A stretch of 35,516 bases of DNA from an uncultured Clostridia bacterium. GTDB lineage: Bacteria > Bacillota > Clostridia > Christensenellales > UBA1242. The position numbers were made by a program, and so were the translations under genes. The stretch spans positions 1-35,516 of the forward strand of contig CAJFOL010000073.1 in the NCBI GenBank assembly GCA_904397185.1, given 5' to 3'. The first letter of the stretch is position 1, and the number at the start of each line of letters is the position of its first letter. The notes beneath the pieces were generated by a model. It did not search any database, was not told the DNA's origin, and saw only the letters and a program-made list of their open reading frames with translations. Positions 5,520 to 31,478 of the stretch are shown here, piece by piece.

Positions 5520-5530
5520 TATGAGACGAT

Positions 5531-10711: not shown

Positions 10712-11417
10712 TAAATATTCTAATTTTAGACTGACGAGCCATACTATATATCCCATCAATGCCAATAATGAGTGAATCGATTAGTTTACAGCCTGAAAAA
10801 CTAAATAATCCTAGCATCTGCTCATAAGAAAGATTATCTTGTTTTGATGCAATACAACTCCCGCCTGGATGATTATGGACTATATATGCACCTGGCATTT
10901 TATAGGTAGAAACATATAGTGCAATATCTCGCATATTGAGTGAGACCATTGCCGTTCCACCCTTGCCAAAGCATCTACCCTGCATGACTTCTCCTGCAAT
11001 GTTGACACCAAACAAGTATACTTCTTCCTCATTTCTGCATCTAAGCAATTGTTCTACATAGTCAAGAAAATCGCCGAGCGAACTTGGTGGTTGTTCTGAT
11101 AATTTTTTGTTTGTGTAATAATTGAACACCTCAACCAGAGAGTGTATCTTTTTTGCAGCAGTTTCGCCAACACCTTTGACTTCCATCAAATCTTCAACAG
11201 ATGCATCTAAAACAGTTGGAACATTTTTGAACCTATCAAGAAGGCGATGGGCGAGAGGATTTACATCCCCTCGCGGGATTATGAAAAAGAGAATAAACTC
11301 AAGTGCTTGGATATCGCTTAGACCTATGAGACCGACAGTGTTGACTGTATCAAGTAATCTCTTTCTATGTCCATCATGGACGCACTTTTCATTGTTAACT
11401 TTAGTAACTTCTCTCAT
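10656..11417 (-). CDS. radC: RadC/JAB-domain family protein
   Basis: 253 aa; HhH-like EDLMEVKGVGETAAKKI and JAMM-type motif IVHNHPGGSCIASKQD. Confidence 0.93.
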   Translation of the reverse strand: MREVTKVNNEKCVHDGHRKRLLDTVNTVGLIGLSDIQALEFILFFIIPRGDVNPLAHRLLDRFKNVPTVLDASVEDLMEVKGVGETAAKKIHSLVEVFNYYTNKKLSEQPPSSLGDFLDYVEQLLRCRNEEEVYLFGVNIAGEVMQGRCFGKGGTAMVSLNMRDIALYVSTYKMPGAYIVHNHPGGSCIASKQDNLSYEQMLGLFSFSGCKLIDSLIIGIDGIYSMARQSKIRIFTRGVEYDQALFLEDMLED

Positions 11418-14400
11418 TGTTGTTCCCCTTCACTAGTATTTGCTGCAGCCACTAATTCCTCATAACTCTTGCCGTCCCAATCTTTTGGATATTGAGTAGC
11501 ATAAATACTATCCTCACCTATTTGGAAATAATTTTCGATATAATATCCCCCATCTTCGCAAAATATTTGGTCAACGTCAGATAGAATAAGAGGATTCATA
11601 TCTTCAGTATTTCCATTCCTATATATGTTTGTACCATCAAATCTTTGAATCTTAGCCGTTTCAAAGTCGTTGAGATTTGTGGCTTGATACCATCTGTTTG
11701 TATCAAGCATTTCTATTTTAGTAAAGCCATATCTTCCTCTAGCCCCACTAATACCATTGATACCATTTTGAGCCCATGCAGATATTTCTTGGCTATCTGT
11801 AGAAACGATTATTTCACCTCTTTCGCCTGCTTGTCCGCCTTCGCCTGCCTCACTTGGTTCTGGTACTTCTGATCTTGCCTCTTCACCATAGCCTTCGGCA
11901 AGTGTAGATATGCTTTCTTCTGCTCTATAGCCAGAGCCACCTGCACCGCCATTGCCACCGTCACCTGCTTTTATTATTCCATTATTGACAAATCCCATGT
12001 TGTCGTCAGTTAATGAAATAATGTTTGTTGAAGAAATAATAACATTTTTACCTGCGGAAGCATCTTCGCCATCTTCACCATCTTCACCAAAATCTGTCGC
12101 ATTATCTCCATTCTCGCCATCCATACCATTTGCGGATGAAATATAGCCAAAGTTTGTGAATTTTAACGGTGTGCTACTTGAAGTTAGTCCTTTGAATAGT
12201 GTTAGGTCATAGAACTGGCTGTTGCTTTGCAGGTGTGAGCCTGAACTATATAGGTCATTGTTGGTGTTGATATCTGAGGTTATTGTAACATAAGATGTTA
12301 TCTCAATGGTATCACCATCATAATTTCCGCTATAGTCAATCAAAGCACCGCTATTCTTATTGTATCTTTGAATAGAGCCATAATATTTGATATTGATAAT
12401 ATCTGCTTGTATGCTTGTACTTGACGTGGTAGTTTTCTTTATAAACAATGTATCATCATTCTCACCAAGGAAAACTATATCTTTTATATACGAGTTTGTA
12501 CCTAAAAGTGATTTGAAGAAGTTTGAGCCAAAATATGATATGTAATAATTGTTACCTATTATATTGACATTCCCTTTCTTTACAAATCCATCAGGTTCCA
12601 TATTAGAACTATCAAATGATATATCATTCATAAGAATTATAGACAGTGGTTCATTAGGTTTAACTGCATTTTCAACTACGTCACTATTTGTAATAGTTGG
12701 AGTCTGAGAATATGCATTTTTAACTGAGATATTAAAGGTGAAATTCTTAACCTTTACAGTGCTGTCTTGTACTCTTTCTACCATCTTTAGCAAGAATACA
12801 TATGCAGATTCTCCATCGATAATTTCATTTCTATAAACTCTATCTAAATATGCCCCTATAGAAGTTCCATTTTCTGTAGTGAGGTCTACATCAAACTTAG
12901 AGGTGTCTCCTTCTAAGATGCCAGTGCTTATTGTATATGTGTTGTAACGAGCAAATTTCGAACTTCCCCAAGAATAGCCTACGGCATTTATTGAAGTAGA
13001 AAATTCCTGTATACCATTCAATGCCTGCTCAACTTTATAAGTTATCTCATCTAGTGCTGTGTATCTATCATTTAACATCACATAATTTGTTGAGCCAACA
13101 CGACCTAATCTTAAAATATAATTTGTATCATTTTCATCGGTGTATTCAAATTCATCTTGTGTAAAGTATAGTTGACCTGTTGCACTTGATATTATATCAT
13201 AGATACTTACACATTGTCCTTGCAATGAAGTATATACACGACTCGGTCTAAATGTATATTGTCCACCATTTACACTATATTCTATACTTTCCCCTTGAAC
13301 ATATGTTTCTGCATCTTGATTATATCTATTTATAATCTCATTATTACTATTATAGTAAATAACATATGATGGTTCTCTTGTTCCATCTTCATCATTAAAT
13401 TGTCCTGCACTGTCATATGATAAAATCAAATTATCATTCACATCATACACGTTGAAGCCTTCTCTGTTTACTGGATTGCCGTCCTCATATGATACTTCAC
13501 TGAAGTAACTTACTCCTACAATGACTTTTCCGCCTCCAGCCGTATTGTCAACAGCATAATAGATTATTGTATTTTCTAAAATCATTTCATCAAGGTTGAT
13601 ATTTGTTTGCACTATGAAATATTCCAACTGACTAATTCTAGGATTGCTATCTCGAACAACAACTGTTATTTCATCCAAGTCATCTTCAGACAATGCATAG
13701 CCTGCGAAGAGTTCTATACCATATTCATTGTTCTCATTTGTTAAAACATAGTTTGGACTTAAAATATTTGTATAGTATTCTTCAGAACCCTCTGAAACTT
13801 TTGTGATAGTATTTAAGGTTGACTCACTCTCGCCTCCCCATAGTTCATAGATAACTGTGTCGCCGATTTCAAAGATGCTATTGTCTATACCTATTGTGAG
13901 ATTTGTCAAAACTGTTTGGTATGACTGTGTGTAATTTACTGACAATGTCCCATAGTATACTGTGACACCATTAAGAGTGTATGTTGTCAAGCCATTTAAG
14001 TCACTTTGATTGATAGTCAAAATATTGTCAGTAATAGTTGCTGAATTTGTGCTTGTTTCATATTCAAATTCGCGTTCAAATATGGCTTCAATATAGCCAA
14101 CAACTTCTCCATCGTCTGTAATATCAGTTCTTTGAGTAAATTCTGTCTCCAAACTTGCAAATAAGTTGTCTAATGTTACACTATTATCTAAATTATTGAT
14201 TATTGTGGTAAATGTATCTAAGTAACTGATAATTTGTTGGTTAATGCTCTCAATTTCACTCTCAGTCACTGTGCCATCAATTGTCAATGTCAATACGTTA
14301 CCTTCAATAGAAACGTCAAATGTGTGTCCGCCTATGATAAATGGAGGACAGTTTGCTGACTTAACCCAAGTTCCATTGCTGTAACTAAATACTGGAATGC

Positions 14401-17400
14401 CACTTAAGATGGCTAAGCCTTGATTTGATGATAATGATTGAAGATTTATTCTAAATTCATAACCTTGAGAATCTATGATTGTGCTTGAAGGATTTGATGA
14501 GTCTGTTGTAAACGAAGCATAACTTGCAAATTCTCCTCTTCCGTCTAAATTATCAACTACAGCAAAATTTTCTTGAATAAAGGAGCGAAGTTGATTCTCT
14601 AAAGTCGATCTCTCTGTTTCATCTAAATTCAAGTTTGCAAAAGTAAACATCAAATTGCCGTTATAACTTGCAATTGTGTAATTGTAAGTATTGCCGTTGA
14701 GCACAATTGAGTCAGTTGTACTGCTACCCATACTCCATCCGCTTGTATCTGAATATTGAGCAATAAGTGCTCTGTCATGGTAGAGTGTATAGTTTGTAAC
14801 ACTACCTGCAAACTCATACTCGTTTGCTATGTAAAGATTGATTATACTGTTGTACAAAATCACTTCACTTGATGTGATATTGTCGTTATACCAATCTGTT
14901 ACAACTTCACCATACTCAATATTTGCACTGCCTGAACTTGAACCACTTGCATTGTCTACACTATCGCTTGCATTTCCTCTAATGTTTGTAAATGAAATGT
15001 CTTTTATTCTCTCCGAAACACCCGCGACTGAGCAATAATAAGTTTTATCACTAAATCTATTGTTGATAATTGTTTGAACATTATCGTAGAAATCTGTTCC
15101 GCCATTTAGTGTTATATCCTCTTCATTTACCATAACATTTGCTCTACCATTTGATAGGTCGGCATTTGGCAGGTAAACAAGTAGTCCGCTTTCAGTTAGA
15201 CCAAAGTATAATACTGTCAAGTTAGAATCAGTGTCAGTGAAGTCTTCATCATATACAACTTCAGGATAATTCTCTTTCAAATAGTCTAATGTTACTCCAT
15301 CTTCTGCAAGTACTGCTTTTACCACTCTATCATAGTATATTGAAGGGTTAAGATTTGAACGTAATGTGTATCCGCCGATTGGTTGGAAACTATTAATTCC
15401 GTTTATCTCTATACCTACTGAGTAGTCATCAATATAATAATATTTTACATTTGATGGATTGAACGACAATGTCACATCATAGTCAAAATGTATACTGTAA
15501 CTTATTGAACCAGTCAATTCATCATCACTATAACATCTAAAGGTGATACTATTTTCACTGACAGACAAAACTGACGAGGTTAAAGAAACTTGGCCTCCAC
15601 TTGTTCTGCCTGTTGCCTCTATTGAATAATAGGAAGTATTTGCCATATAAGGCAAGTTGCCTAAAGATGCCGTAATCTCATAGGTGTATATACCAGCATT
15701 GAATATTGAACGCAAGTTATTTTCTTCTGCAATGTAGTAACTTGTTCCCCCTATTTGTACCTGTCTTGTCTCGCTTCCACTGGCATGACTTCTAGTACCA
15801 TCCTTTATGGAAGAACCATTTGTTGTGCTTACTGCATCGCTTTGACTTGAAACAAATTTGTTTGTTCCATCATCACCTTTGTATCTTTCAACATAATCTG
15901 AGTAAGCCTCGTCATATGATACTGGACTGAACTCTAAGTTGGTAACTTTATGAGGACTTTCAAGCCCATCACCCATATCAATACGATTTCTCCAGCCATA
16001 GTTTCCTACTCCATTGATTAATACACCAGCTTTTTTGCCTGTAAAATAATTTATGGTTGATTGTATTGACAATTCAACTACAAAACTCTTTGGCAAGCCA
16101 AAACTATTATAAGAGTTGATATAAACATTTGCATCTCCACTTTCAGGTCTTACTACTTCGGTGTCTATTTCAACAATTCTCTTTTCAATAGTACTGAAAT
16201 AAAGTATTGGTCCGAAAAGTATAGGCAATAACCACTCTGTTTCAAGCATAGATTCGCCATGGAAGTTTAGAGAACTAACTTTCACATAGTCGCTTATCTC
16301 CGCCCAACTCCAAGACTGAATTTCGGTGTCTTTTTCTAGCATTGAACCATTCATGTATACCGAATCTTCGCTTGCATCTAGTACTGCAAGACCACTTGCT
16401 GAGCCGTCACCAATATCTCCTATGGCATATGCCCAGACATTTCGTGGACTCGTCTGTCTTAATACTAAGTCTTCACGTCCATCCATTTCCCAATAGAAAC
16501 CAGTTGTTGGGCTTGCACCCAATGCTTCAATTGTACCTTCATTGTAGCATGAGGTAACACTTGCATTCTTTGCCTTTGCAATTATACCGCCACCATATGA
16601 GAAGCCTTGGATATTGCCATCTTCATTTGTTTTTCCATTATACTTATTTCCAGATTTGATTGTGCCTGAGTTGTAACTTCCTTGTATTGTAAGGTCATCG
16701 GCACTACTAAAGCCAGCAACACCACCTACATAATATTGTCCAAGATTTGTGAGAAGTCCGCTGTTGTTTGCATAGCCTGCCATAACTGAAGTTGCATTGT
16801 AACTATAGTTGATTGCACTCTCGCCGTCATCATCTGCAGACGCAACTAAGCCTACAATACCACCAACATAGTAGTTTTGGGTTGCAGTATTTGCAGTTGA
16901 GTAAACATTGATAGGTGCATAGTTTGAACTATAATTTATTGTACTATCAAGCATTGTACCTACAATACCACCGACTGCAAGTACAGAATAACCTGAACTA
17001 AAGCCATCTACGTCAATGGTAACCATGTTGGTAACTGTTGATATTGTTGAATTTTGTGCTTCACTGGCAAGTGCACCAATCGTCAAGTACTTGAAGTCTT
17101 CACCAAAGATTGAGGTGATATTAAAGTCATCAAATAAACCTTGAAGTAGGTCGTTTATTAGTTCTAAGAAGCCTGAGTTGTTGCTTTTGTCGATTAGTTC
17201 ACCTACAGTTGCATTTTTAATTGAGCCTGATAATGTAATGTTTGAAATATCAGAATCATATATCCTAATGGCTAAAAGTCCATTACTTGATATTTCTGCA
17301 TCGGTCAAACGAAGATTTCTAATATTCGAACGTGTCACCACTTCTATACCAGTTGATGGACCAATCATATCAAATAATGGAGAGGTCAAGCCTGAGATTG

Positions 17401-20400
17401 TCTTTTCTCTACCATCGAAGTTGATAGGTATATATGTGTCTCCATTGTCGGTCGTAGTGGTTGTCTCAAAGATAAGGCTAGTCCAAGTAGAATACTGTGA
17501 CTGCGACAAATCAATATCATACCATAGAACGAAGTTTCTTACCTCTGTAGTTGTCGTGCCTTCATCGGTTGTAATTGTATAGTCAATATCGTCAGCCTTT
17601 GCAAGCAAGCCTGCATTAGGTATTATGAAATAGACATTGCTATAGTCACTTGGTCTTGTATTGTTTGCAAGTCTAGTATACTCTGTCTCGGTAATGTATT
17701 CATCATAGTTTGTACCTTGTGTTGTCGTACCTGCCGAGACGTATGATGACGTTTTTAAGAAGCCAAACTTAGACGTTGGATAACCATAGTTAAAGTCGTA
17801 GTCGCCTTTATCATAGTTGTTTCTAATACCAAGATTGCTCTCTGAGTTGTTGGTTAAGCCAGTGACATAGTCAGTGTTTTGCTTATAATCAGTGTCATCT
17901 TCCAAAACTGAAGCATTTATTGCATTATAGTCATAGTACGAATCTGTGATATTATCGTTTTCATCATCTACACCAAATATAGAAAGTTCCCCTGTCGGTT
18001 TCCCGCTTGTGGTGTAGTCATTTAAGTCAAGTTTTGTAATAGAATAACTGTTTGCAATCTCAAATGTATTTGTATTTAGGGTTGATGCGAATGCATACAG
18101 GTTTGCTGAAATGTAAGAAGTTATGCTCCCTGTTGTGTAACTATTGAATACAAATTTATTGTTGTCACTATTTGAAATTGAACCATTCAATTCATTTCTT
18201 AGCCCTACAAGTCCATAGACTTCAGCCATATCTCCTGAATCACTTGCACCTCTGTAGATTATATCCAAAGCGGTCGTAGCATATTCTATCTTTCCAGAAT
18301 ACAGGTTTGTCACAACACCTGCGACATCTATAACTTTGTTGCCACCAATATCCATTTTGCCTTTAACTTGCACCGCAAATATTTGGCTGTTGTCATACAT
18401 ACTGTTTGCAATTCCTGAATAGTTGTCATCAAGTGTTATTGTACTGCCTTCGCTATCCATTGAATTTGTTGATATATCAACATTGACTACAAGCCCTGAT
18501 ACATATGAGAATCCACTAAGCGAATTGATAAGTGAAGAATGAGTTTCGCTTGAATCGTTAACCGTATAGTTTATCTCACCAGCGCCACCAATTATAGCAA
18601 CGTCTTTAAGAGTTGTCTTGTCTGTGCCTACTTCTAATTCTGTGCCTACTTCTAATGTGAAAGGTTCTGTGAATGATAGGTCAGCACTATTTTGACTGAT
18701 TGTAGCATAGGTCATACCATTAAACTTATATGAATTAGGAATAATGGTAGTATCATTTGTAAGTTCATAAGGCTGTAACTTATGTCCAACATCTACATTA
18801 TCGACACTTAACAGAGTATTTATTTGTGCATATCTGCCAAGCATACTTAACTCGTTTGTTCCGTCTGTGCTAAGGCTTAAATTGTTTGTAGAGTTGTAGC
18901 CATAGCCATCTCCAATGTATGGTACTAAGTAACCTATATCACTTCCGTAGTTATCTATGCAAAGTGAAACGGAAGAACTGTAATAGTTGTTGCTAAGTGC
19001 ACTTTGAGGAGAAGGTGCCCTGCCGAACAATGCACCTATAGATGTATAAGTAGTATTTGTACTGTTAACTTCATCTCTTGCATTGTGGTTTGTAACCATT
19101 GAATAGTTGCCATTTGCGACAATTCTATATTGACTTGAAATATCAGCCAAAAGTCCACCAAAGACATATGAATCTAATTCTTCAAGATTGTCATCATAGC
19201 ATACGTAAACGTCACCATAGTTGAAACTGTTGGTAATTGTAGCCTGTATAGTCTGACTTATTCCCGCTGGACTGCCAAGTCGACCTACAAGACCACCTGC
19301 TATAACGTCTCCACCTTGACTGTTTGCCCCATAAACTTTAAGCATACCACCAAAAGATGTGTTTATAAGTGAGACTGTATCGCTAGCACTTGTGAAATTT
19401 GTTTCTCCTATGATACCACCAAAGGTTATATTGCTAATATTTGAGTAAACGGCACCATTGAAGGCAACGTATGAGGAGTTTTGAGCGCCAACATTTACTC
19501 TTGAAATAGAATTTCCACCAGCACTTGTGTCAGTCTTGTAAACACTTCCTATGATACCGCCGACTGCCGGGCTATCGTCAATTTCACCACTTCCAATAAC
19601 TACAAATTGAGCATATGATACTACTCCACTTGTAATATTTACGGTGTTATTTCGAAGTTCGGCAAGTGAGGTCGCTGTTGTCTCGCCAAGAACGGAGCCT
19701 ATTGCAGAGTCATCGCTTATACCTACAAATCTAAATGATTCTCCGTTTGCATTCAATCTAGTAAGGTCAGCCCCCATACTGAAATATGCATTTGTTGAGC
19801 CTACCACAACACCTGCTTTTACTATACCAACTGTATTTGCTGTACCAAGTGTAAGGGTGTTGCTTGCATAATCATTGCTGTCTAAGGTGTCTTTTGATAT
19901 CTCACTGACACCACTTGAAGCACTTGATAGTGCCACAATTTCATAGTTTAATTCGCTAAGGTTTGTAATAGTCATTGAACTTCCAAGCGAACCTGCATAG
20001 CCACCTGCATATAACGAGGTAATTGTCACATTATTTTCACTGCCACTATTTTGAACTACATATAATCCGCCGTCAAATCTTGCACTATTGAAGTTTATTG
20101 CATTGACATTTGTATTGTCTGCTCTACCAAAGATTATACCTGTGTGCAATGTGGTAAATGACGAAGTTGCACTGCTTGTATCGTTGAGATATACATCAAC
20201 ACTGCCTGTGAAATTTGATTGCAAAGTCAAGGTATCAAGTCCGTGATTATAGCCAATATATCCTGCAATATATGCATTTGTCGCTGAAGCATGGCTTACT
20301 GTCACCCTTTGATTCTCATCATTTGACGAATTTATTCTTTCAATACCTTGTAGTGACAAATTCATCCTAAGAGCATTTGCCTCTCTTTCAATCAAACCAA

Positions 20401-23400
20401 AGTAACCACCGACATACATATTAGTAAAGTTTGTGTTTCTAAATGAATCGTTTTGTCTTGCAGAGCCGTCAATATTTATGAGGTTGCTATGTATAGACAT
20501 ATTTAAACCATTGACCTGCATAGTCGAACTTGTGCTTGACTGATACATTCTTCCTGCAAGCATACCTACTGATAACGAGTCAACTGATATTGGGCTGTTA
20601 TCACCTGCACTACTGCTTGTAGTAAAGTATACATTGAGTAATGAATCCGAATCTGTGAAGTCTGAAGAAGGATAGGTCACTGTATCTATAGAAACATTGA
20701 TGATTGTTGAATTGATAATCTCAGGAGCCAAAATACCTACATTTATGTTGCTTCCAGTATTAAGTGCTACTGTAGTATTGATTGGAGCATCTATATAGAT
20801 TCTGAGATTTGTAATGGTCGCTTCATTGAGTGAACCCGTTGAGAAGAGTCCTGCATTACCATTGTTTGCTGTAATCTTTATTTCAGAACCGCTTTTTGGA
20901 ACATACTCAATAACCACGTCATCTAGATAGAAGCCAGCACCAACAGATTCAATGAAACTTTGGTCAGAGATAATTCTTATCGGTCTTTCTTCGCCAGTTG
21001 TTGCATCTACTGTTGTATAGGTGTTGGTATGCCCTACTAAAGAGCCTGAGAAGTTTGATATTGGTGTATAATTGTTATTGAAATAGGTCGCTAAATCAAT
21101 ATCCACATAATTTCCTGTTGTATCCTCTGCATCTGCACTTACAAGTCCACGAACGATGATTGTAATATCACTGTTTGGTGATTGCATGATATCAAAAGCA
21201 CGTTCGATACTTTCATCATAAGCATCAAGGTATATGACATTGCTTACTCTTTGATATTGAATTGATGGGAACAAGTCATCGGTTGGATGAGTCCAGTTTT
21301 CTGTGTTCCAAACACCTGAACTTAAGAATCCTTGTTGAGTGAAGGTATGTCCGATTGCCGAAGAGGTATAGTTGATTGGTGAATTGATTGCATAAACGTA
21401 GTTTGTTTCGTAGAGGGTATTGTCTTCTATACTGCTATCAACGTCACCGAACAAGTTGAGTGACATTATATTGCCATTGAATGTGTAACTTTCGTAAAAT
21501 GCTACCGTTGGGGATAGTATTGAGCCTTGTCCTGCATCTCCTTCATTTGAAAGCCTTATAAGGTTAAGGTATGGTGTATAGTTGCTGTCATTTAGATTTG
21601 TATATACCCACTTTCCGCTTTCTCCAAGGTCAAAGGATGAACCTAAAATCAAGTTTGTCTTGAAAGTCTCTGAAACATTGATTGAAGAGTTAAAGGTCAA
21701 GTAACTATTTGCATTATAATCATAATTTGAAATATAATTCAAAGCATTTACTGCCATAAGGGCAATTCGTCCACTCCCGTAGTTGGCACCAATAATACCA
21801 CCCGCTGTCATAACTCCGCTTTCGCCGTCTTGTCTTGCTCTGACATCGCCTGTTGCGAAGACTTCGTTGATAAAGTATTTAGTATAAATTTCTTGGTCAT
21901 CCCCTAGAAGTTCTGCCTCTGCTTGGTAGGTGTTGGCACTTGATAGGTTAATACCACCTATGATACCACCTGCGAAATTAGATGCCATGCTTACAACGTT
22001 GAGTTTTGAGTAGGATATTTCCATACGTCCGCTCTCTACATAACCTACAAGTCCACCAATATATTCTTGATTATATGAACTGTTATCAAGATAGAAAAGG
22101 TTTGTTGCACCTCTTTCAGTACTATTGTCTCCAGTGTAGAAACTAGACATATTGTTTTCAATCTCACTTTGAGTTGAATCATCATAGACTGCGAAAATTC
22201 TACTCAAACTGCCGAATGACTGTCCTATAGCACCACCAGCAAAGAACTTGGTCGCTATAATATGTGATTGTGTGTTGTCGCTGTCTGCCTCAATTGTTAT
22301 TCCAGCATCACGTACATTTGTTTGGTAGGCTGTTAAACCAAATATACCGCCTGCCACTTGTCCTTGTACGTAAACTCTACCGCTCACTCTTATGTTGTTT
22401 ATGGTAAAGTTTTCGGCTTGATTTATGTTGAAGCCATCAAGTAATGTCGTGAAGTGGTCAGCATAGCCTACAACACTACCTGCATACGAATATACACTTA
22501 AAGTGTTTACTAATGGAGATGAAACCACTGTAGAATTGTTAAGATTATTTCTTATTTCATTTCGTATAGTCCTGATACTTTCAGTTGTGAAGTAATCATT
22601 TGAATCATATCTATCGGCTATAACATTAGGATTTGTCACTGTTATATTTTTGATTACACTGTTGCCAAAAGATAGACCTACAAGTCCACCTACAAAGTTT
22701 AGACCATTTACCTGACTATCATCACTGAATGAAATGTCAATACCTACAAGGATTGAGTCCTTTGCATAACCTGCAAGTCCTCCCACCATGGTTATATCAC
22801 CAGCAATAACTTGGTCTATCTCTAAGTTAAGGTTGCTCACAAGTGGAGTTGAACCGTTCCTGCTCTCGAGTGATGCAAAGAGTCCGTAAGCGACACCCTC
22901 TCCCTCTGATGCTATTGAAAGATTTGAAATTGTAAAGCCATTTGCATACAATCTTCCTGAGAATGATTTGCTGACTGATGGAAGAGTTATTGAAGTGCTT
23001 AAATCAGAAAGGTTGACATCACCGACAAGTCTGTATGTACCCCAAATTGAATAACTATTGAAGTATTGTCCTTCATAAGAAGAAGTTGACAAGCCCATTG
23101 CATCTACAAAATCTTGGGCATTTGCAATTAAGATTGGGTTGTTTGAAGAGCCTAGCGAAGTGTTAATCTCTCTTGTTGAATCTGTGAACTGCAAGATTGC
23201 ATACGGAAGAACGTACTCGCCTTGGTCGTCTACACCTACCACCCCGCCTACTTCACTGCCTTCTGCGATGTATGATACATATCTATGAGAGTATGTCTTA
23301 ATATTTGGCTCTATGAGTTTTATACCCTCGCCTACAACATTGCTCCAAATGCCATCATATTCAGAATCAGCAATAGCAAAGCCATAGAAATATGTTGAAT

Positions 23401-26400
23401 TTTCTGGGTCTGGTATCAGAATAGCACCTGTGCTATAGAGTGCCTCATTTGAACTATCTGATGCCTCTTCATTTCCATAGTACTGATAGTTGAAATAGTA
23501 ACAATTTGTATATGTACCATTTGCAAGCAAGTCACCACTTTCATTTACACCTGAGAAGTTCATCTGTGTGGAACGAGAATTTGCAATTTGAGATGCTGAG
23601 TAACTTGTCTCAATTGTTCCCTCATTTCTATATACGAAACCTGATGCAAGGTAAACATTAAGTGAATTTGAAGAGTTTGATATCAATATATTTGAATAAC
23701 TATCCTTGATAAGACCATTGTTGCTGTTTATAAAGCCTGCAATTATTCCGTATGCTGACTTGAGTGATGTGCCAGTATAGGCAAATTTAGCCCAGTCGTT
23801 AGTGTTAGTCTCGTCTTGTTTGCCTTCGGCATAACTTGTAAGAATAGTTCCTGAGTTTGTCCCAGCAAATCCAGAAGTATCATATGCTGTCGCTCTTGAT
23901 TGATTTTCCATATCAAGAAGTTTAACAAATGATGCTGAGATTGAGCCTGAGTTTGTAAGAACAAAACCTGCCATGTCACCTTGACCTATCATATAGAATG
24001 TATCAAGGTCTATAGTCGAGGCAAATGTATAGCCCATTGCTATAACATCGCCATTCTCGGCAACTTCCGTCCTATCTTCGCCAAGAATGGTCACCTCGTC
24101 ACCGCCTACTCGTGAGTTGGTTATATTACCAGAGTTACTTATAACAAATCCAGCCATTTGAGTTGACCAAGATGAGCCAGCGGTAAGATAAACACTCTCC
24201 GTGGTCAATGCACCACGAATAAATTTGACATTAAATCCTGATGGATTGTTATGTTCGTTTGTCGCTGGTTCTAATAGGCTTTCGCTTTGCCCTACAGCAT
24301 TACCTGTTGTATAGAAGGATACAACTTCGCTGTTTGTGATTATACCTGCATTTGATATTGCAAGTCCGGCAATATTTATTTGAACATTATTATTTAAAGC
24401 ACTGAGGTTTATAGTAAGTTGTCCACCATTGTAAATATTTACCCTAACGTTCTTTAATGTTGTGCTTTCAAGTACGTTATTAAATAGTGCGATATTCAAT
24501 TCGCTTGACGTTGAGGTTAAATTGAAACTTCTAATATGAATAGTATAACCATTTCCGTCAAGACTGCTGATAAGGTTTGTATTGAATGGAGTATGCTCGT
24601 CAAGTACTATATCATTCATCAAAATATAGTCATTCTGTGTTACCGTGCCTGTGTAATTTGATGGATCAAGATTTTCAAAGTCGCTTGCACTGTTTATAGA
24701 TATTGGAAGGTCCTCATCAGAATAAACACCAACTGTAACCGTGAAGTCTGTGTTGTAGGTCATAGGAGTTCCTGTAGCACTGCCGCTTGTATAGACAAAG
24801 GTTTTCAGTCTAAATTGTACTGTTTCGCCCTGTCTTGCTCCTATTATTGAAGCCTCCTCTGTGCCATTCGTATTTTCTATAAACTCAAATCTTGCACCTG
24901 CAGTGTATCTATAATTGTCTAAAACTGGGATTTCTTCGTTTCCATTTACAATATAGAAAAGTCTTTCACTTAATTTATAAGGTCTGTTATTCTCTATATC
25001 ATAGTTGATTGCATATTGAATTAAAGTTGAACTCTCTCCACTTGCATCAGTGAAAGTCTTGCTTGAAACATGATATTGATTTACCAAGAATTCTTGACGT
25101 TTTTGGAGTAATTCGCTCACCTTTGCTACACTTTCTTCGTCATTATGGTCATAAGTATAACTTTCTGGAAGAACATTGTATTCAACTTCAAATGCACTGG
25201 TAACACCTGCCCATGCATCAAGGTTGCCATTGTCGGCACCTACGATTTGTATATTGTTTGTGTCTACCTTTATATCAACCAGTGTGATAGTTGCAAAATA
25301 ATCTCGTGATTCTTTTACACCATTGATAGTCCTTGACACTTTGACAAGAAGTGACAGACTGTTGTTGCTTGAATTTACCGAGGCATTGACACCTGCTGTG
25401 ATAGATGCTGTATATGTCTTAATTCCAGTGATAGGGTCGGTAGTAGGAGTTGACAGTGAAGAGATATAAACCTCTTGAATATTGTCACCGACAAGAGTTG
25501 CACTTTCCACAACTTGGTCTTGTCTTACCTGCACTTCTACATCGACAGTCGAACCTAGTGCGACATATGATTGTGTTTCACCATCCACAAGTACCACTGG
25601 TTCTGACAAATAATTTATGGTTAAATAATAGTTTACTGTGCTTAAAAGTGTGCCTTCGCTTGTAAAGAAGGATGCGGTAAATCTTATGGTGCTATCAGAG
25701 TTTACTTGTGAACTTATTGCTGTCCTAAAGTATAGTGTACCATCATTGTTTTGGTCGCTATTTGGAGTAAATCTTATGGTGTTTGCATACACACTTACAT
25801 CAGCACCGTCATAACCTACAAAATTGTTGTTATTATTGTATGGCATAACAAGTTCAAAACTTACAGCATTTGCAACTGAGGCATTGCTATATGAGAGTTC
25901 CATGTAATCATAGTGCGCAAATGATGGGTTTGCTGTGACTTGCAAGATTGTATTGCTTCCAGGAGTGACTACACTTGTTTGGTCGCCCTTTTGGTGTACC
26001 GTACGGTAAATACCATTGTCGTTTGTCCAGTAAGAGTTTTCAACTTTGTAACTCGTAACATCAATATTTGTAAACTTTTGACGGGTAAGATTGAGCAATA
26101 CCTGTCCATTGTTGTTTCCGCTTGACAAGTCAGAACTATCAATGTTTGAATTGCTCCTAAATGTTACCACAAAATCCATATCTCTAGCAATATTGCTTCT
26201 ATAGTCAACATATACCGAGAATGATATTTCAAAAAGGTAACCATAGGTTTCTGTTTCTTCATCGAATGCATCATCTTCGTTTAAAAGTGTCACTGTCGCT
26301 GATAGGATATAGTTATTCTCGTCTGCCATATAGTCTTGTGGCAATGTATAGTGATAAACCGTTTTATTGTTCGCCGAAAGTACTTCGTCCTTTGTGATAT

Positions 26401-29400
26401 GAAGTTCATCACCATTATAAGAAATAATAGGCTGAAGATTGTCTTTATCACTCTGTGCCGTGGTGTCGACCTCTACACGAAGTGCAGCATTTGTTGATGG
26501 AGTCAAAGGTATGCTTTCGCCTGTGTAATTGAAGGATATGACACCATCAACTGGAGTTATAGTAAACGACCTACTAAACACACTATTGATTGCCGATTGA
26601 TACTCGCCGTCTGTGATAATCGCATCGACTTCAATCGAAGTTGTCACAGAGTCTTTATTGGTGCCTACCATAAATATGTTGTTGATTGGAGTGATATCTA
26701 GGCTGTTACCCACACTTGGTGTCATAGTCAATGTCATATCGTTTGCAACAAGTGAGTACTGCGAAGCAGTATTGCCTAAAAGAATTGTTGAATTTTCAAA
26801 TGTTACAGTATATTGACGTGACTTTGTCCTTTGAAGATAGGTCACTGAATTTTCTTGTATCTCATACGAATTGTTGGCATTGTCGGTGTATGAAACTATC
26901 ATTTGAGAAAGAGCATACATTACTTTGACGTCTATTGTCTTTGTATTCAAAACATCATGTTTAGAAGAAATTGTCAAGGTCACATCACCAGTGCCTACAA
27001 CTACGATGGAAGAACCTATTGTCCTCACTATTGAGGTGTCTGATGAGGTGATTATTATATTATCAGTGACATTTTCTAAGTCAAGCAACTGAGAAAGCGA
27101 GATGGTGTTGAGTTCGTTAAGGTCATTTTGTGCCGAACTTGTCAGGTCAGCCGTTCCACGTTCGACACTGTAGTAAAATAGTATTCCGCTATTTTCATTT
27201 ACCGAAAGTGACTTATAATAGCCGTCCTCATCATAGTTTTGAATCGCCCCTCCAGACACGTCAGTAACCTTCTCTTCTTGATACAAATCTCTAAAGTGAG
27301 GATTTTCATTGTTTACATATGTATAATATCCACTTCCTGATGAGATGAGATTGCCACTGTTTTCATTGTAGTATGATGAAGTGTATTCATCAAGCAGATA
27401 GTAAGACCAGTAAAAGTCAGAGTTTGAGGTGATATTTGCATATGTTGAGCCCATATCATTTCCTGCATAATATGCAACATTATCAATAACACCAAATGAG
27501 TAGTATATTCGTGTTTGCCCTGACAGTTGACCTACAATAGTACCTTTGATAGTCGCATTAATAACTGATATATTATCTTCTATATAATTATCAATATTAT
27601 AATTATAAGCATAAGAATATAATATCGAAGAGCCTTCTGTTGCCTGTCCTACGATACCACCTACAACGGCTCCAGTGAAGGTGTTATAGGCAGTTTGGGT
27701 GTCATCAGCCCTATCTGTAAGATTGTAAAATTCAACTCTTCCGTAACTGATTTCGCCGTTGTTTTGCCCTGCAATACCACCTACTGTTGCATTCTGTGCA
27801 TTGATAGTAAGACCAAGGACTGAAGAACCACTAATTGTGCCATTGTTTACACCAACAAGTCCGCCCGTCATCTCTCTTCCGTCATAATTTAATACACTTG
27901 GATAGGTTTGATAAACATCAACGGTCACATTTTCTATTGTACCGTCATTAGTATTTGCGACAAAGCCTTGTCCTGTCACTGTGCCTTGGAATGTTATATT
28001 CCTTATAATTGCATCCTCGGTCAAGGTGTTTGCAAAGTTTGCACCATTGAAGTTTATAGTAACATTTTCATCATAACCTTGAAGTCCACCACTAAATGAG
28101 TCAATAGAGACTCTAGTTGAAGAGATATCAAGGCTGTTCATTACTGTATAATATAGGCTTGGAATAATGCCATTAAACGAATTTTCATCATATATTCTAT
28201 ATGCATAATCAAAACTGCTACCATCGGCAACGGTTATCTTTATTTTCAAGAGAATATCACTAAAGTAAACCATTTCCATTTCGCCATCAAGCGAAGTGTT
28301 TGAGGTAAAGAAGGCATTGCCGACAAGGAAGTCATACCAAGTTTGTCCGTCAGACCTTAAAAGTCCTAATGCTCTAGCACTGACTTGACTTTGCACTATT
28401 TGGTCATCTACAAAGTAACTAAATATGATATTACCATTATATATTGCATCCTCTGGAAGAAGATAGATATAACCTGTTGTACCTTGTGAGATTATATCGC
28501 TTAGTGATACCCCGATTGTTCCTGTCGTAACACTGTTTACGTTGACAAAGGTATCGTTGTCAATAACATCGCCATTGTCGTCAGTTATTAAATAGGTTAT
28601 ATTGCTATTTCTTGCAGATTGTGGTGCTGTGGTAAGGATTAAATAGTATGGCTCGTCATCTCCTACTTCAAAATATATTCCATCTTCATCACTATTTTCC
28701 CAGTTAATCGAAGAAACTCTTTCTGCATTTCTAATTGTAATGTTGATAGTCGTCCACATTACGTCCAAAACTTCCTGTCCATCTTCCCCGTCAATAAGGA
28801 GTTGATAGTGAACCTCGAGTTCGTCAAAGAAGGTAAAGTCTTCATAGTTTGATATGGTTGATATTGTAAAGCGAAGTTGAGAATCTGTGATTGTTATATT
28901 TTCTATTGTATACCTACCATAATCCCACACAACCGAGTTGCTGTTTGTATGACTTTCACCCATAATTGAATTGCCAGACGAGTCTTTTACGGTAGACACA
29001 AATCTAATATTGTCAATAGATTTATATGTAATACCCGTGTTGGTAAAGTTTATAGTGATAGTCTTCTTTGTAAGGTCATCATCTCTAGTCGCAACGGTGT
29101 TTGCTGAGTAAAGATTTACCTGTCCGTCACTTGAAGGTGTGATTCTCATGCCATCTGGAGCAACATAACTTTCAATAAGTATAATTTTTATAATAGTTAC
29201 ATCGCCGTCCACACCTTTCCCTGTAAAAGTTGCAACAGCATAAGTAAAGCCTACTCCGCTCGTAATGATAGAACTATTATCCGCCGAGAAATATGCCACT
29301 GCACTGTATTTCTGCTGATTTGCTCTCGCATTTTCGATAATTTGTAAGATACCATCTTGAGTGTTTACCAAATTTTTAAACACGTCAAGTGTCATGGTTT

Positions 29401-31414
29401 CACTTGCAACAAAATCATAATAAGATACATCTATATCTGCTACCGCCTCATAGTTACCTGAGGAGTTGAATGAGTAAAACAGTGGTGTTGTCGACCCATT
29501 TTTGAGCATAATACTTGATAAACTTTCGTTATTCTCTTGTATTGCATTTCCTGCCAAATCATAAGACAGATTGTTTGTAGAATAATCGGTTACTGATGCC
29601 GAGGCATTATGTAAAATTACCACACTATTAAACGGAAGGAAGATGTTTATATCAAACTCTTCGCTTTCAAAGCCGTTCTCATGGCAAATCTTATAATGGT
29701 CAATACTTGTTACACCATAACTTGACCTATTTAAAGTCAATGTCACTGCAAATGTGACCGAATCGGTTGTTGCTGATACAAAAGTAGGTCCAGTCAGTGT
29801 CACATTTTCGCTATCCACATCAAGGTACAATCCATCTATTGTCGTCTGTCCTTGCAAAGTAAAGTATTTTGTTTGTGATATGGCTGTTCCGCTTGCACTT
29901 GAGTCAATATTAAAGTCGGCATCCTCGAAGACAAAATCCTCTTGTGTCACACTCTTTATAAGTTGAACGTCAAATGTATTTGTAACCTCTTCATTGTCTG
30001 CACTTCTAAAAGTTACCCTTATACCCTCGAAATTTTGAACTCTCAAATCTGATGCCGCTTTCATGTAAATTCTATCAGCCGAAAGCATATTCTCATCGCG
30101 GGTTGTGTATACGTTGCCGTCATATTCAAGCAATGCTTGAGTGATAGTGTTATTTAAAGAATCTTGATACCAAAATTCCACAGGACAGCCACTAGACAAG
30201 CCTCCTTCTGGCAAAACACCATTTGTTATTTCAACACTGATTGAATACCTGCCAGAGGCATTTACCACTGTTGTTGGTGTCACTTCTACAAAATATTCTT
30301 TGCCATATATATTTCTATATTGTGAATAAAGGACCTGTGTTGTGCCTTCAATGTTGTCTGCCCCATCCGTTGAAATTGTTATACCATTTACCTTTTCTCT
30401 TACACTAACGTAGATAGGCAAGCTTCGAATTGCTGGCAAGTCATAATCAGAATAGCCAACCTCAAAATATACAACAAAATCTTCATTTAGACTTGTAATA
30501 TTCTTGTTTGTGTAAATTGCATAGATTGGGTTACCTTCGCCATCTTCCCCTGTCGACTCAATTATCAACTGGTCAGTGGCATTACCAAACGAGTCTGTAA
30601 CAGTGTAAGAAACCTCAAGGTCTTGAGTGAAGTTGAGTTTTACATATCCTGTATACTGCTCATCACTGGCAAGGTTTGGCACAATGGTAAAGGTAGAATT
30701 ATCTTCAGTTATTTGGTCATACTGCTGATTATCTCGGCTATAGGACCAAGAGAGAGTGAGGTCATCTTCAAGTTGGTCTATAACTGGAAGTTCTATATCA
30801 CAAGTAACTCCCTTCTCTGTCGTAGCCCTAATTATAATAGTATTTTGCTGATACTCAGGAGATATTGTTAAAACATTGCCATTTATAGAGGCATTTGCCT
30901 CACCATCATATAACTCCCAAGTTATTGTACGTCTAGAATTAGAAGAAGGATAGAAAGTTAAAAGATTGTAGTCAATAAGTTCAATGCTGTCGCCTCGGAT
31001 TGCGAAGTTAGATTTTTTGTCGGTCTCTTCTGTCCTTTGTTCCATAGCCGAAACCTCACTGAAAACATCGACATTTATAATCTTTGTGATGTTCCCTTGA
31101 TAAGAGGTCACGTATATTTGACCATAACCTTCAGATAGCCCTGTAATAGTTATTACAGTTCGCCCATCTGAAAGCCCTTCTGTCCTATATGAAAGTATTG
31201 ACGTATCTCGTGCATCGACAGAGACTTGGCTGTCGCTTGTTCCCGTGACAGTCACTGTAACCTCTGCAGTTGATGGCACTGTGTCATCACCTATCTGTAT
31301 TTCTACATATTGAGTTGACAGTGTCATTTGAATGTTGTTCGTTGTGCAAGCGGTCAATATAGTCGCCCCAAGCAAAACAAACATACTTAAAAGCCCGACA
31401 AAAAACTTTTTCAT
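11414..31414 (-). CDS. Giant (6666 aa) predicted lipoprotein with Ig-like domains, GLUG/beta-helix repeat blocks and a C-terminal interrupted Gly-X-Y region
   Basis: Single uninterrupted ORF; N-terminus MKKFFVGLLSMFVLLGATILTAC (lipobox LTAC, Cys23); many GLUG-like motifs (GGLVGVNNGTISGS, GGIAGQNNGEISYG, SGFAGTNSGTILTSYAEG, GGLVGYVESGRMEISYS); AGGAGGA SD. Confidence 0.95.
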   Translation of the reverse strand: MKKFFVGLLSMFVLLGATILTACTTNNIQMTLSTQYVEIQIGDDTVPSTAEVTVTVTGTSDSQVSVDARDTSILSYRTEGLSDGRTVITITGLSEGYGQIYVTSYQGNITKIINVDVFSEVSAMEQRTEETDKKSNFAIRGDSIELIDYNLLTFYPSSNSRRTITWELYDGEANASINGNVLTISPEYQQNTIIIRATTEKGVTCDIELPVIDQLEDDLTLSWSYSRDNQQYDQITEDNSTFTIVPNLASDEQYTGYVKLNFTQDLEVSYTVTDSFGNATDQLIIESTGEDGEGNPIYAIYTNKNITSLNEDFVVYFEVGYSDYDLPAIRSLPIYVSVREKVNGITISTDGADNIEGTTQVLYSQYRNIYGKEYFVEVTPTTVVNASGRYSISVEITNGVLPEGGLSSGCPVEFWYQDSLNNTITQALLEYDGNVYTTRDENMLSADRIYMKAASDLRVQNFEGIRVTFRSADNEEVTNTFDVQLIKSVTQEDFVFEDADFNIDSSASGTAISQTKYFTLQGQTTIDGLYLDVDSENVTLTGPTFVSATTDSVTFAVTLTLNRSSYGVTSIDHYKICHENGFESEEFDINIFLPFNSVVILHNASASVTDYSTNNLSYDLAGNAIQENNESLSSIMLKNGSTTPLFYSFNSSGNYEAVADIDVSYYDFVASETMTLDVFKNLVNTQDGILQIIENARANQQKYSAVAYFSADNSSIITSGVGFTYAVATFTGKGVDGDVTIIKIILIESYVAPDGMRITPSSDGQVNLYSANTVATRDDDLTKKTITINFTNTGITYKSIDNIRFVSTVKDSSGNSIMGESHTNSNSVVWDYGRYTIENITITDSQLRFTISTISNYEDFTFFDELEVHYQLLIDGEDGQEVLDVMWTTINITIRNAERVSSINWENSDEDGIYFEVGDDEPYYLILTTAPQSARNSNITYLITDDNGDVIDNDTFVNVNSVTTGTIGVSLSDIISQGTTGYIYLLPEDAIYNGNIIFSYFVDDQIVQSQVSARALGLLRSDGQTWYDFLVGNAFFTSNTSLDGEMEMVYFSDILLKIKITVADGSSFDYAYRIYDENSFNGIIPSLYYTVMNSLDISSTRVSIDSFSGGLQGYDENVTINFNGANFANTLTEDAIIRNITFQGTVTGQGFVANTNDGTIENVTVDVYQTYPSVLNYDGREMTGGLVGVNNGTISGSSVLGLTINAQNATVGGIAGQNNGEISYGRVEFYNLTDRADDTQTAYNTFTGAVVGGIVGQATEGSSILYSYAYNYNIDNYIEDNISVINATIKGTIVGQLSGQTRIYYSFGVIDNVAYYAGNDMGSTYANITSNSDFYWSYYLLDEYTSSYYNENSGNLISSGSGYYTYVNNENPHFRDLYQEEKVTDVSGGAIQNYDEDGYYKSLSVNENSGILFYYSVERGTADLTSSAQNDLNELNTISLSQLLDLENVTDNIIITSSDTSIVRTIGSSIVVVGTGDVTLTISSKHDVLNTKTIDVKVMYALSQMIVSYTDNANNSYEIQENSVTYLQRTKSRQYTVTFENSTILLGNTASQYSLVANDMTLTMTPSVGNSLDITPINNIFMVGTNKDSVTTSIEVDAIITDGEYQSAINSVFSRSFTITPVDGVISFNYTGESIPLTPSTNAALRVEVDTTAQSDKDNLQPIISYNGDELHITKDEVLSANNKTVYHYTLPQDYMADENNYILSATVTLLNEDDAFDEETETYGYLFEISFSVYVDYRSNIARDMDFVVTFRSNSNIDSSDLSSGNNNGQVLLNLTRQKFTNIDVTSYKVENSYWTNDNGIYRTVHQKGDQTSVVTPGSNTILQVTANPSFAHYDYMELSYSNASVANAVSFELVMPYNNNNNFVGYDGADVSVYANTIRFTPNSDQNNDGTLYFRTAISSQVNSDSTIRFTASFFTSEGTLLSTVNYYLTINYLSEPVVLVDGETQSYVALGSTVDVEVQVRQDQVVESATLVGDNIQEVYISSLSTPTTDPITGIKTYTASITAGVNASVNSSNNSLSLLVKVSRTINGVKESRDYFATITLVDIKVDTNNIQIVGADNGNLDAWAGVTSAFEVEYNVLPESYTYDHNDEESVAKVSELLQKRQEFLVNQYHVSSKTFTDASGESSTLIQYAINYDIENNRPYKLSERLFYIVNGNEEIPVLDNYRYTAGARFEFIENTNGTEEASIIGARQGETVQFRLKTFVYTSGSATGTPMTYNTDFTVTVGVYSDEDLPISINSASDFENLDPSNYTGTVTQNDYILMNDIVLDEHTPFNTNLISSLDGNGYTIHIRSFNLTSTSSELNIALFNNVLESTTLKNVRVNIYNGGQLTINLSALNNNVQINIAGLAISNAGIITNSEVVSFYTTGNAVGQSESLLEPATNEHNNPSGFNVKFIRGALTTESVYLTAGSSWSTQMAGFVISNSGNITNSRVGGDEVTILGEDRTEVAENGDVIAMGYTFASTIDLDTFYMIGQGDMAGFVLTNSGSISASFVKLLDMENQSRATAYDTSGFAGTNSGTILTSYAEGKQDETNTNDWAKFAYTGTSLKSAYGIIAGFINSNNGLIKDSYSNILISNSSNSLNVYLASGFVYRNEGTIETSYSASQIANSRSTQMNFSGVNESGDLLANGTYTNCYYFNYQYYGNEEASDSSNEALYSTGAILIPDPENSTYFYGFAIADSEYDGIWSNVVGEGIKLIEPNIKTYSHRYVSYIAEGSEVGGVVGVDDQGEYVLPYAILQFTDSTREINTSLGSSNNPILIANAQDFVDAMGLSTSSYEGQYFNSYSIWGTYRLVGDVNLSDLSTSITLPSVSKSFSGRLYANGFTISNLSIASEGEGVAYGLFASLESRNGSTPLVSNLNLEIDQVIAGDITMVGGLAGYAKDSILVGIDISFSDDSQVNGLNFVGGLVGLSFGNSVIKNITVTNPNVIADRYDSNDYFTTESIRTIRNEIRNNLNNSTVVSSPLVNTLSVYSYAGSVVGYADHFTTLLDGFNINQAENFTINNIRVSGRVYVQGQVAGGIFGLTAYQTNVRDAGITIEADSDNTQSHIIATKFFAGGAIGQSFGSLSRIFAVYDDSTQSEIENNMSSFYTGDNSTERGATNLFYLDNSSYNQEYIGGLVGYVESGRMEISYSKLNVVSMASNFAGGIIGGINLSSANTYQAEAELLGDDQEIYTKYFINEVFATGDVRARQDGESGVMTAGGIIGANYGSGRIALMAVNALNYISNYDYNANSYLTFNSSINVSETFKTNLILGSSFDLGESGKWVYTNLNDSNYTPYLNLIRLSNEGDAGQGSILSPTVAFYESYTFNGNIMSLNLFGDVDSSIEDNTLYETNYVYAINSPINYTSSAIGHTFTQQGFLSSGVWNTENWTHPTDDLFPSIQYQRVSNVIYLDAYDESIERAFDIMQSPNSDITIIVRGLVSADAEDTTGNYVDIDLATYFNNNYTPISNFSGSLVGHTNTYTTVDATTGEERPIRIISDQSFIESVGAGFYLDDVVIEYVPKSGSEIKITANNGNAGLFSTGSLNEATITNLRIYIDAPINTTVALNTGSNINVGILAPEIINSTIINVSIDTVTYPSSDFTDSDSLLNVYFTTSSSAGDNSPISVDSLSVGMLAGRMYQSSTSSTMQVNGLNMSIHSNLINIDGSARQNDSFRNTNFTNMYVGGYFGLIEREANALRMNLSLQGIERINSSNDENQRVTVSHASATNAYIAGYIGYNHGLDTLTLQSNFTGSVDVYLNDTSSATSSFTTLHTGIIFGRADNTNVNAINFNSARFDGGLYVVQNSGSENNVTITSLYAGGYAGSLGSSMTITNLSELNYEIVALSSASSGVSEISKDTLDSNDYASNTLTLGTANTVGIVKAGVVVGSTNAYFSMGADLTRLNANGESFRFVGISDDSAIGSVLGETTATSLAELRNNTVNITSGVVSYAQFVVIGSGEIDDSPAVGGIIGSVYKTDTSAGGNSISRVNVGAQNSSYVAFNGAVYSNISNITFGGIIGETNFTSASDTVSLINTSFGGMLKVYGANSQGGDVIAGGLVGRLGSPAGISQTIQATITNSFNYGDVYVCYDDNLEELDSYVFGGLLADISSQYRIVANGNYSMVTNHNARDEVNSTNTTYTSIGALFGRAPSPQSALSNNYYSSSVSLCIDNYGSDIGYLVPYIGDGYGYNSTNNLSLSTDGTNELSMLGRYAQINTLLSVDNVDVGHKLQPYELTNDTTIIPNSYKFNGMTYATISQNSADLSFTEPFTLEVGTELEVGTDKTTLKDVAIIGGAGEINYTVNDSSETHSSLINSLSGFSYVSGLVVNVDISTNSMDSEGSTITLDDNYSGIANSMYDNSQIFAVQVKGKMDIGGNKVIDVAGVVTNLYSGKIEYATTALDIIYRGASDSGDMAEVYGLVGLRNELNGSISNSDNNKFVFNSYTTGSITSYISANLYAFASTLNTNTFEIANSYSITKLDLNDYTTSGKPTGELSIFGVDDENDNITDSYYDYNAINASVLEDDTDYKQNTDYVTGLTNNSESNLGIRNNYDKGDYDFNYGYPTSKFGFLKTSSYVSAGTTTQGTNYDEYITETEYTRLANNTRPSDYSNVYFIIPNAGLLAKADDIDYTITTDEGTTTTEVRNFVLWYDIDLSQSQYSTWTSLIFETTTTTDNGDTYIPINFDGREKTISGLTSPLFDMIGPSTGIEVVTRSNIRNLRLTDAEISSNGLLAIRIYDSDISNITLSGSIKNATVGELIDKSNNSGFLELINDLLQGLFDDFNITSIFGEDFKYLTIGALASEAQNSTISTVTNMVTIDVDGFSSGYSVLAVGGIVGTMLDSTINYSSNYAPINVYSTANTATQNYYVGGIVGLVASADDDGESAINYSYNATSVMAGYANNSGLLTNLGQYYVGGVAGFSSADDLTIQGSYNSGTIKSGNKYNGKTNEDGNIQGFSYGGGIIAKAKNASVTSCYNEGTIEALGASPTTGFYWEMDGREDLVLRQTSPRNVWAYAIGDIGDGSASGLAVLDASEDSVYMNGSMLEKDTEIQSWSWAEISDYVKVSSLNFHGESMLETEWLLPILFGPILYFSTIEKRIVEIDTEVVRPESGDANVYINSYNSFGLPKSFVVELSIQSTINYFTGKKAGVLINGVGNYGWRNRIDMGDGLESPHKVTNLEFSPVSYDEAYSDYVERYKGDDGTNKFVSSQSDAVSTTNGSSIKDGTRSHASGSETRQVQIGGTSYYIAEENNLRSIFNAGIYTYEITASLGNLPYMANTSYYSIEATGRTSGGQVSLTSSVLSVSENSITFRCYSDDELTGSISYSIHFDYDVTLSFNPSNVKYYYIDDYSVGIEINGINSFQPIGGYTLRSNLNPSIYYDRVVKAVLAEDGVTLDYLKENYPEVVYDEDFTDTDSNLTVLYFGLTESGLLVYLPNADLSNGRANVMVNEEDITLNGGTDFYDNVQTIINNRFSDKTYYCSVAGVSERIKDISFTNIRGNASDSVDNASGSSSGSANIEYGEVVTDWYNDNITSSEVILYNSIINLYIANEYEFAGSVTNYTLYHDRALIAQYSDTSGWSMGSSTTDSIVLNGNTYNYTIASYNGNLMFTFANLNLDETERSTLENQLRSFIQENFAVVDNLDGRGEFASYASFTTDSSNPSSTIIDSQGYEFRINLQSLSSNQGLAILSGIPVFSYSNGTWVKSANCPPFIIGGHTFDVSIEGNVLTLTIDGTVTESEIESINQQIISYLDTFTTIINNLDNSVTLDNLFASLETEFTQRTDITDDGEVVGYIEAIFEREFEYETSTNSATITDNILTINQSDLNGLTTYTLNGVTVYYGTLSVNYTQSYQTVLTNLTIGIDNSIFEIGDTVIYELWGGESESTLNTITKVSEGSEEYYTNILSPNYVLTNENNEYGIELFAGYALSEDDLDEITVVVRDSNPRISQLEYFIVQTNINLDEMILENTIIYYAVDNTAGGGKVIVGVSYFSEVSYEDGNPVNREGFNVYDVNDNLILSYDSAGQFNDEDGTREPSYVIYYNSNNEIINRYNQDAETYVQGESIEYSVNGGQYTFRPSRVYTSLQGQCVSIYDIISSATGQLYFTQDEFEYTDENDTNYILRLGRVGSTNYVMLNDRYTALDEITYKVEQALNGIQEFSTSINAVGYSWGSSKFARYNTYTISTGILEGDTSKFDVDLTTENGTSIGAYLDRVYRNEIIDGESAYVFLLKMVERVQDSTVKVKNFTFNISVKNAYSQTPTITNSDVVENAVKPNEPLSIILMNDISFDSSNMEPDGFVKKGNVNIIGNNYYISYFGSNFFKSLLGTNSYIKDIVFLGENDDTLFIKKTTTSSTSIQADIINIKYYGSIQRYNKNSGALIDYSGNYDGDTIEITSYVTITSDINTNNDLYSSGSHLQSNSQFYDLTLFKGLTSSSTPLKFTNFGYISSANGMDGENGDNATDFGEDGEDGEDASAGKNVIISSTNIISLTDDNMGFVNNGIIKAGDGGNGGAGGSGYRAEESISTLAEGYGEEARSEVPEPSEAGEGGQAGERGEIIVSTDSQEISAWAQNGINGISGARGRYGFTKIEMLDTNRWYQATNLNDFETAKIQRFDGTNIYRNGNTEDMNPLILSDVDQIFCEDGGYYIENYFQIGEDSIYATQYPKDWDGKSYEELVAAANTSEGEQQ
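11725..12140 (-). other. Interrupted collagen-like/glycine-rich segment of the giant protein
   Basis: NGMDGENGDN..GEDGEDGED..GDGGNGGAGGSG..AGEGGQAGERGE..NGINGISGARGRYGF. Confidence 0.7.
12061..12087. repeat. 9-bp tandem repeat x3 (CATCTTCGC/CATCTTCAC/CATCTTCAC) encoding GEDGEDGED
   Basis: Direct reading. Confidence 0.9.
18621..18656. repeat. Perfect 18-bp tandem duplication (TCTGTGCCTACTTCTAAT x2) inside the giant gene
   Basis: Direct reading; encodes LEVGTE-LEVGTD. Confidence 0.95.
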
Positions 31415-31478
31415 ATATCCTCCTCGTTTGTTGCCCTCAATGACAAAACAAACTTAAACAGCAATTTTGTATAAAAAG

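Follow-up and report, generated by a model that had tools for sequence, protein, structure and literature searches.

What does a single gene of 20 kb, coding for a protein of 6666 amino acids, do in an uncultured Clostridia bacterium, and is it one gene at all? The window analysed here, i.e., the whole stretch of 35,516 nucleotides, makes up the entire contig C73, one of 128 contigs in a metagenome-assembled genome of 1.19 Mb and 75% completeness. A preliminary description of this DNA had reported an intact 6666-aa frame at 11414-31414 without stating its strand. Precisely there, on the minus strand, a frame of 6666 codons starts with ATG and contains no internal stop. The fragmented state of the genome would speak for an artefact, either separate genes joined by misassembly or a frame that is open by chance. 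However, a stop-free run of this length has a log-probability of about -498 at the base composition of the window, and the five other frames of the gene contain 356-659 stops each, which excludes a chance open frame. BLAST with the N-terminal 500 aa gave matches in most of 36 genomes of the same genus, while 24 genomes from other families of the order gave no match. Stop-free frames of 6059-7690 aa (full regions) are present in 18 other species and full-length frames of 6355-6756 aa in five further species, so that the search for orthologues of the same length, as recommended earlier, returned full-length counterparts in 23 other species (6059-7690 aa). The full frame is therefore found in 24 species. 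Moreover, 18 orthologues are collinear with the window protein across ~5000-6666 residues at 24-59% identity, the collinearity running from end to end in those tested, and dN/dS is below 1 in all bins of all pairs compared. Since independently assembled genomes carry the full frame, the frameshift or assembly fusion that had been named as a refuting result is excluded, and an artefact has practically no chance of explaining the gene. An apparent frame of 30,488 aa in another genome (G029) was discarded, as it represents 72 kb of masked N.

The protein begins with a signal peptide and the lipobox LTAC with Cys23 (residues 1-23; 31346..31414, minus strand), as had been proposed. Equivalent lipoboxes are present in 18/18 other full-length orthologues tested, and A22 and C23 are invariant in all 19 proteins, the window protein included. 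The lipoprotein processing enzymes are encoded as well, Lgt in 17/17 and LspA in 16/17 genomes searched, and both are found in the genome of the window. Past the signal peptide, the window protein contains neither a transmembrane-grade segment (mature maximum KD19 1.35) nor an LPXTG motif, and Cys23 thus holds as the only visible anchor. A stretch near residues 5000-5110, which is hydrophobic in some orthologues, was considered as a membrane-inserting element and rejected because it is not conserved.

The gene (11414..31414) has a perfect sigma-70-type promoter, TTGACA-18-TATAAT (31479..31508, minus strand), 64 bp upstream of the ATG, and a Shine-Dalgarno sequence AGGAGG (31419..31424, minus strand). 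All 25 orthologues with upstream DNA, two of them from another genus, have a sigma-70 promoter matching 11-12 of the 12 consensus bases at a distance of 28-94 bp to the start, followed by an AGGAGG-type Shine-Dalgarno sequence in nearly all cases; shuffled upstream regions reach a mean best score of ~9.3. The conserved consensus promoter argues for strong expression of the giant gene, and since the gene has such a promoter of its own, the product is probably abundant. Abundance would suit a protective or structural coat, in which giant lipoproteins standing as a dense brush would protect the cell from phage, protozoa or host defences and would also serve to maintain the envelope. The strongly acidic, Ser/Thr/Asn-rich composition of the giant would go along with this as well, whereas an S-layer or wall-binding domain was not found in it.

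The gene order is kept among the orthologues. Upstream and divergent are iPGM and a PP-loop ATPase, the latter being TtcA-like and located at 31683..32393 on the plus strand of the window. Downstream follow radC, two small helix-turn-helix-like/TM proteins, uvrB and uvrA. The radC-like gene (10656..11417, minus strand) overlaps with its start codon the stop of the giant (ATGA). The two small proteins (9589-9954 and 10277-10711) have a winged-helix-like N-terminus and a C-terminal TM segment, lack a Pfam match and are kept beside radC throughout the genus. In five genomes (G006, G036, G034, G019 and G003) a second radC-like copy lies 8-11 kb from the first and is oppositely oriented. The window furthermore contains a 307-aa Big_3-domain membrane protein (6493-7416) with a perfect consensus sigma-70 promoter of its own just upstream, and, between uvrA and uvrB, two adjoining WG-repeat-type proteins of 531 and 263 aa (3875-6389). 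An Rfam element was not found in the window.

How is the protein built? The membrane-proximal conserved region (residues 24-1060; 28235..31345; this and all following parts on the minus strand) has no Pfam match and is probably beta-rich. It is followed by a first GLUG-motif block (residues 1061-1300; 27515..28234). The most conserved block (residues 2211-3240; 21695..24784) contains GLUG motifs, is predicted to form a parallel beta-helix and is shared with a shorter paralogue. The distal arm (residues 3331-6666; 11417..21424) is fast evolving and mosaic, and is absent from the paralogue. Near its C-terminus lies a glycine-rich, collagen-like / GGNGGAGG cluster (residues 6428-6560; 11735..12133), which according to sequence alignment is conserved in most of the genus. 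The window protein has 17 strict GLUG motifs (shuffle mean 1.6, maximum 7), located at residues 1184-1256, 2723-3209, 3952-4044 and 4815-4901, and none distal to ~4900. The GLUG-like repeats described earlier are thus enriched, but instead of occurring throughout they form blocks that all lie between residues 1184 and 4901, and the bacterial Ig-like repeats mentioned alongside them have no support from Pfam, in which no Ig-like domain (Big_x) was detected for the protein. Pfam and NCBIfam are nearly empty, with one weak Glug match and one sub-threshold collagen-like match at the C-terminus. A single GLUG motif (PF07581) scores 22.9 bits at a cut-off of 20.5, while the 3333-aa N-terminal half gives 15.4 bits, which is under the Pfam cut-off.

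AlphaFold2 modelling of residues 2211-3390 together with 12 orthologues gave a pTM of 0.80 and a mean pLDDT of 75.6, with pLDDT >90 for a large part of the first 400 residues. The model, which shows a parallel beta-helix strand pattern, is largely beta-helix. The proposed stalk or fibre therefore keeps its elongated form as a prediction, with one 1180-aa stretch modelled mostly in this fold. In the PDB, this model comes closest to IgA1-protease-like proteins (E 6.6e-4), in which the GLUG part folds as a beta-helix; PL6, GH55 and GH87 polysaccharide lyases/hydrolases come next, with non-significant E-values. These matches would be compatible with a surface enzyme built on a beta-helix, either a polysaccharide-degrading one (PL/GH type) or a protease of the M26 type. 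However, just two matches have E <1e-3 and the others reflect the generic fold, the HExxH protease motif is absent from 12/12 orthologues tested, and there is no PL, GH or M26 match in Pfam. An M26 protease identity was thus rejected, and an enzyme of any of these types is very unlikely. The C-terminal 672 residues are modelled poorly (pLDDT 55, pTM 0.47), and neither the PDB nor viral libraries contained a fold matching them significantly. Sequence searches of the PDB, run with the tip and with two profiles, produced no meaningful match. Due to the weak tip model and the missing fold match, the idea of a polyglycine tip stays an analogy.

The two halves of the protein evolve differently. Purifying selection is strong on the membrane-proximal ~3200 residues, whereas the rate of evolution is several times higher in the distal half. 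In the close pair G032/G084, dS is 0.29 and dN 0.019 in the first 500 aa, compared to a dS of 1.58 and a dN of 0.47 at residues 5501-6000, with dS in the flanking genes being 0.33 (ttcA), 0.18 (pgm) and 0.17 (radC). Seven pairs, among them the same pair as L085/L086, have the proximal-distal split in common: omega is 0.06-0.3 in most proximal bins and 0.3-0.6 in most distal bins, generally so past residue 3501, and it is raised in single proximal bins in two of the seven. Local dS peaks occur in several pairs (L100/L102, L116/L117, L125/L128), and since L116/L117 has an additional dS peak at its N-terminus, exchange is not limited to the distal arm alone. A conserved stalk carrying a diversifying, recombining arm would be in line with this pattern. 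Since omega exceeds 1 in no bin of any pair, positive selection is not demonstrated, and relaxed constraint on the distal arm is a possible alternative. That selection acts for function, as had been concluded from the size of the intact frame, is supported by the full-length collinear orthologues, the purifying selection and the conserved promoter.

Distal diversification with mosaic dS would also be expected for the protective coat, where variability would mean escape from such attackers and not the binding of a ligand. The conservation of the terminal glycine-rich cluster across most of the genus rather suggests a constrained tip. We consider the coat unlikely, while ranking the brush as the main rival of a fibre. 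A long beta-helical stick whose N-terminus is conserved and whose C-terminus varies is moreover reminiscent of contact-dependent toxin delivery of the CdiA/polymorphic-toxin type, in which the variable C-terminus would be the toxin. That reading is hardly credible, however, since the variability covers ~3400 aa with smooth grading and no switch at a short C-terminal domain, the C-terminal part retains the glycine-rich cluster and has no toxin domain in Pfam, and radC is located directly downstream in most orthologues instead of a variable immunity gene.

The preliminary description had dealt with one gene, and beyond its claims go the paralogue, the conservation across the family and the split into a conserved proximal and a variable distal part. 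The same genome encodes a second giant, a 3835-aa lipoprotein on contig C86 (L163 2561-14068), located between a TraG/VirB4-like ATPase and rpoB, a position that it keeps in three sister species. This short paralogue has a size range of 3.1-3.8 kaa and aligns to the proximal half of the long giant: residues ~1-3200 of the long form and the short form share a common plan, with the best match at long residues ~2200-3250. The ATPase directly upstream (14113-16791; PF19044) is a lone P-loop ATPase; the three sister species have a similar gene of ~900 aa in the same position, and no other secretion genes were seen alongside. A third GLUG protein is represented by its 3' end on contig C80 (L164 9956-10324), cut by the contig end, and this contig also carries an FtsH-like gene and a GerA spore-germination gene. 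The long and the short giant genes adjoin directly in genus g29, and in G366 two tandem giants are located next to the TtcA-like gene, which suggests an ancestral tandem duplication as origin of the long and short giants. The giant is usually kept as one member of a pair.

A search with a beta-helix profile found relatives in 93/117 good genomes and 30/38 genera of the GTDB family, which is probably UBA1242, usually with several matches per genome, most of them giant, in frames of ~3000-9000 aa. The frames in genus g28, with 9045 aa in G433 (L190-L191) and 8323 and 5045 aa in G250 (L185-L186), are among the longest found in the family. The remaining 24 of the 117 genomes have no match to the profile, and 20 of these contain only shorter GLUG proteins of up to 2141 aa; thus not every genus requires the giant. 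Scanning the collection with the beta-helix alignment gave 174 loci, of which the best 80 are all from uncultured Clostridia/Firmicutes/Christensenella metagenome-assembled genomes, several of them from deer or rabbit gut.

Taken together, we assign a probability of about 0.6 to the giant being a lipid-anchored fibre with a conserved stalk and a variable distal binding arm. The protein would be exported via Sec and be held by its N-terminal diacylglyceryl-Cys in the outer leaflet of the cytoplasmic membrane, with the proximal ~3200 residues, comprising beta-rich modules and GLUG beta-helices, as stalk across the wall. The distal ~3400 residues, which evolve fast and recombine and which end in the glycine-rich cluster, would form an exposed arm that may bind a partner cell, mucus or a plant-fibre surface, and the giant may act together with the shorter paralogue of the same proximal plan. 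In favour of the fibre are the collinear full-length orthologues with lipobox, the encoded Lgt and LspA and the lack of a second anchor, as well as the beta-helix model, whose nearest folds are the GLUG helix of IgA1 proteases and polysaccharide-binding beta-helices, the selection gradient in the seven pairs, the conserved glycine-rich tip and the consensus promoter. Against it stand the poor C-terminal model, the genomes of the family without a match and the fact that known binding domains were not detected in the giant; furthermore, immune, phage or predator pressure could yield a variable distal arm without adhesion.

The fibre would also fit its host. In PMC12306168, UBA1242 is described as genome-reduced, with sporulation genes kept and most biosynthesis and known transporters missing, and as probably partner-dependent, with uncharacterised membrane proteins being proposed for cell contact. 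A place in the order Christensenellales, the herbivore gut as habitat, genomes of 0.7-1.7 Mb and the GerA gene mentioned above all fit this family. In a lineage that has lost most of its biosynthesis, at least 2-3% of the genome still goes to giant surface proteins, and their conservation across most of the family together with the consensus promoter is strong circumstantial evidence that the giants are central to the lifestyle. It is conceivable, though at clearly less than even odds, that the long and short giants are a contact apparatus tethering these genome-reduced, sporulation-gene-bearing gut Clostridia to partner bacteria off which they live, with the species-specific, exchangeable arm setting the partner range. 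With its conserved base and variable far end, the giant is a leading candidate for the means by which these bacteria attach to whatever they live on, and it offers a concrete, testable molecular candidate for the partner dependence proposed in these uncultured bacteria. Moreover, it suggests that N-terminal lipid anchoring can hold proteins of 5000-9000 aa in Clostridia, and the orthologues offer a natural series for the study of one-ended diversification in giant beta-helical proteins.

How does the giant compare to known systems? The parts of PMC12306168 and of the huge-protein survey PMC11573180 at hand contain no description of this gene. The GLUG-containing IgA1 proteases (M26) share the GLUG motif and are the nearest solved folds to residues 2211-3390 (3n6z, 7uvl), but the giant lacks the peptidase domain, HExxH and LPXTG and has ~5x the length of the solved chains. 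The serine-rich repeat proteins, such as SRRP of L. reuteri (5nxk), are beta-solenoid surface adhesins with a long stalk (PMC12863079), as is proposed for the giant. The giant, in contrast, has the opposite polarity due to its N-terminal anchoring and contains no serine-rich repeats, and the fold match of 5nxk to residues 2211-3390 is non-significant (E 0.41). The C-terminal LPXTG with TM segment of sortase-anchored MSCRAMM/SRRP proteins is absent, as is the combination of a short variable C-terminal toxin and an immunity gene typical for polymorphic toxins/CdiA. Glycine-rich motifs are also found at the receptor-binding tip of the gp38 long-tail-fibre adhesins of T-even phages (PMC12892980), which is an analogy in sequence style, with no gp38-type match by sequence or fold. 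The closest analogue, alike in scale and genome economy, are Giant1-5 of Apilactobacillus kunkeei, extracellular proteins of 3000-8000 aa with several per 1.5-Mb genome, which have beta-solenoid content, are kept universally in the species and undergo intragenic recombination (PMC12863079). Giant1-5 have a Sec/SPI signal, a beta-solenoid at the N-terminus only, alpha-helical rods or arrays of beta-domains and a C-terminal DUF5776, and are encoded in one cluster (PMC12863079), whereas the giant described here has a lipoprotein signal, GLUG beta-helices in the middle of the protein, no Pfam match to DUF5776 in its C-terminal part and separate or tandem loci, and belongs to another bacterial class. 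Giant surface adhesins are thus an already known kind, from whose representatives Giant1-5 the present protein differs in signal type, domain plan and sequence family.
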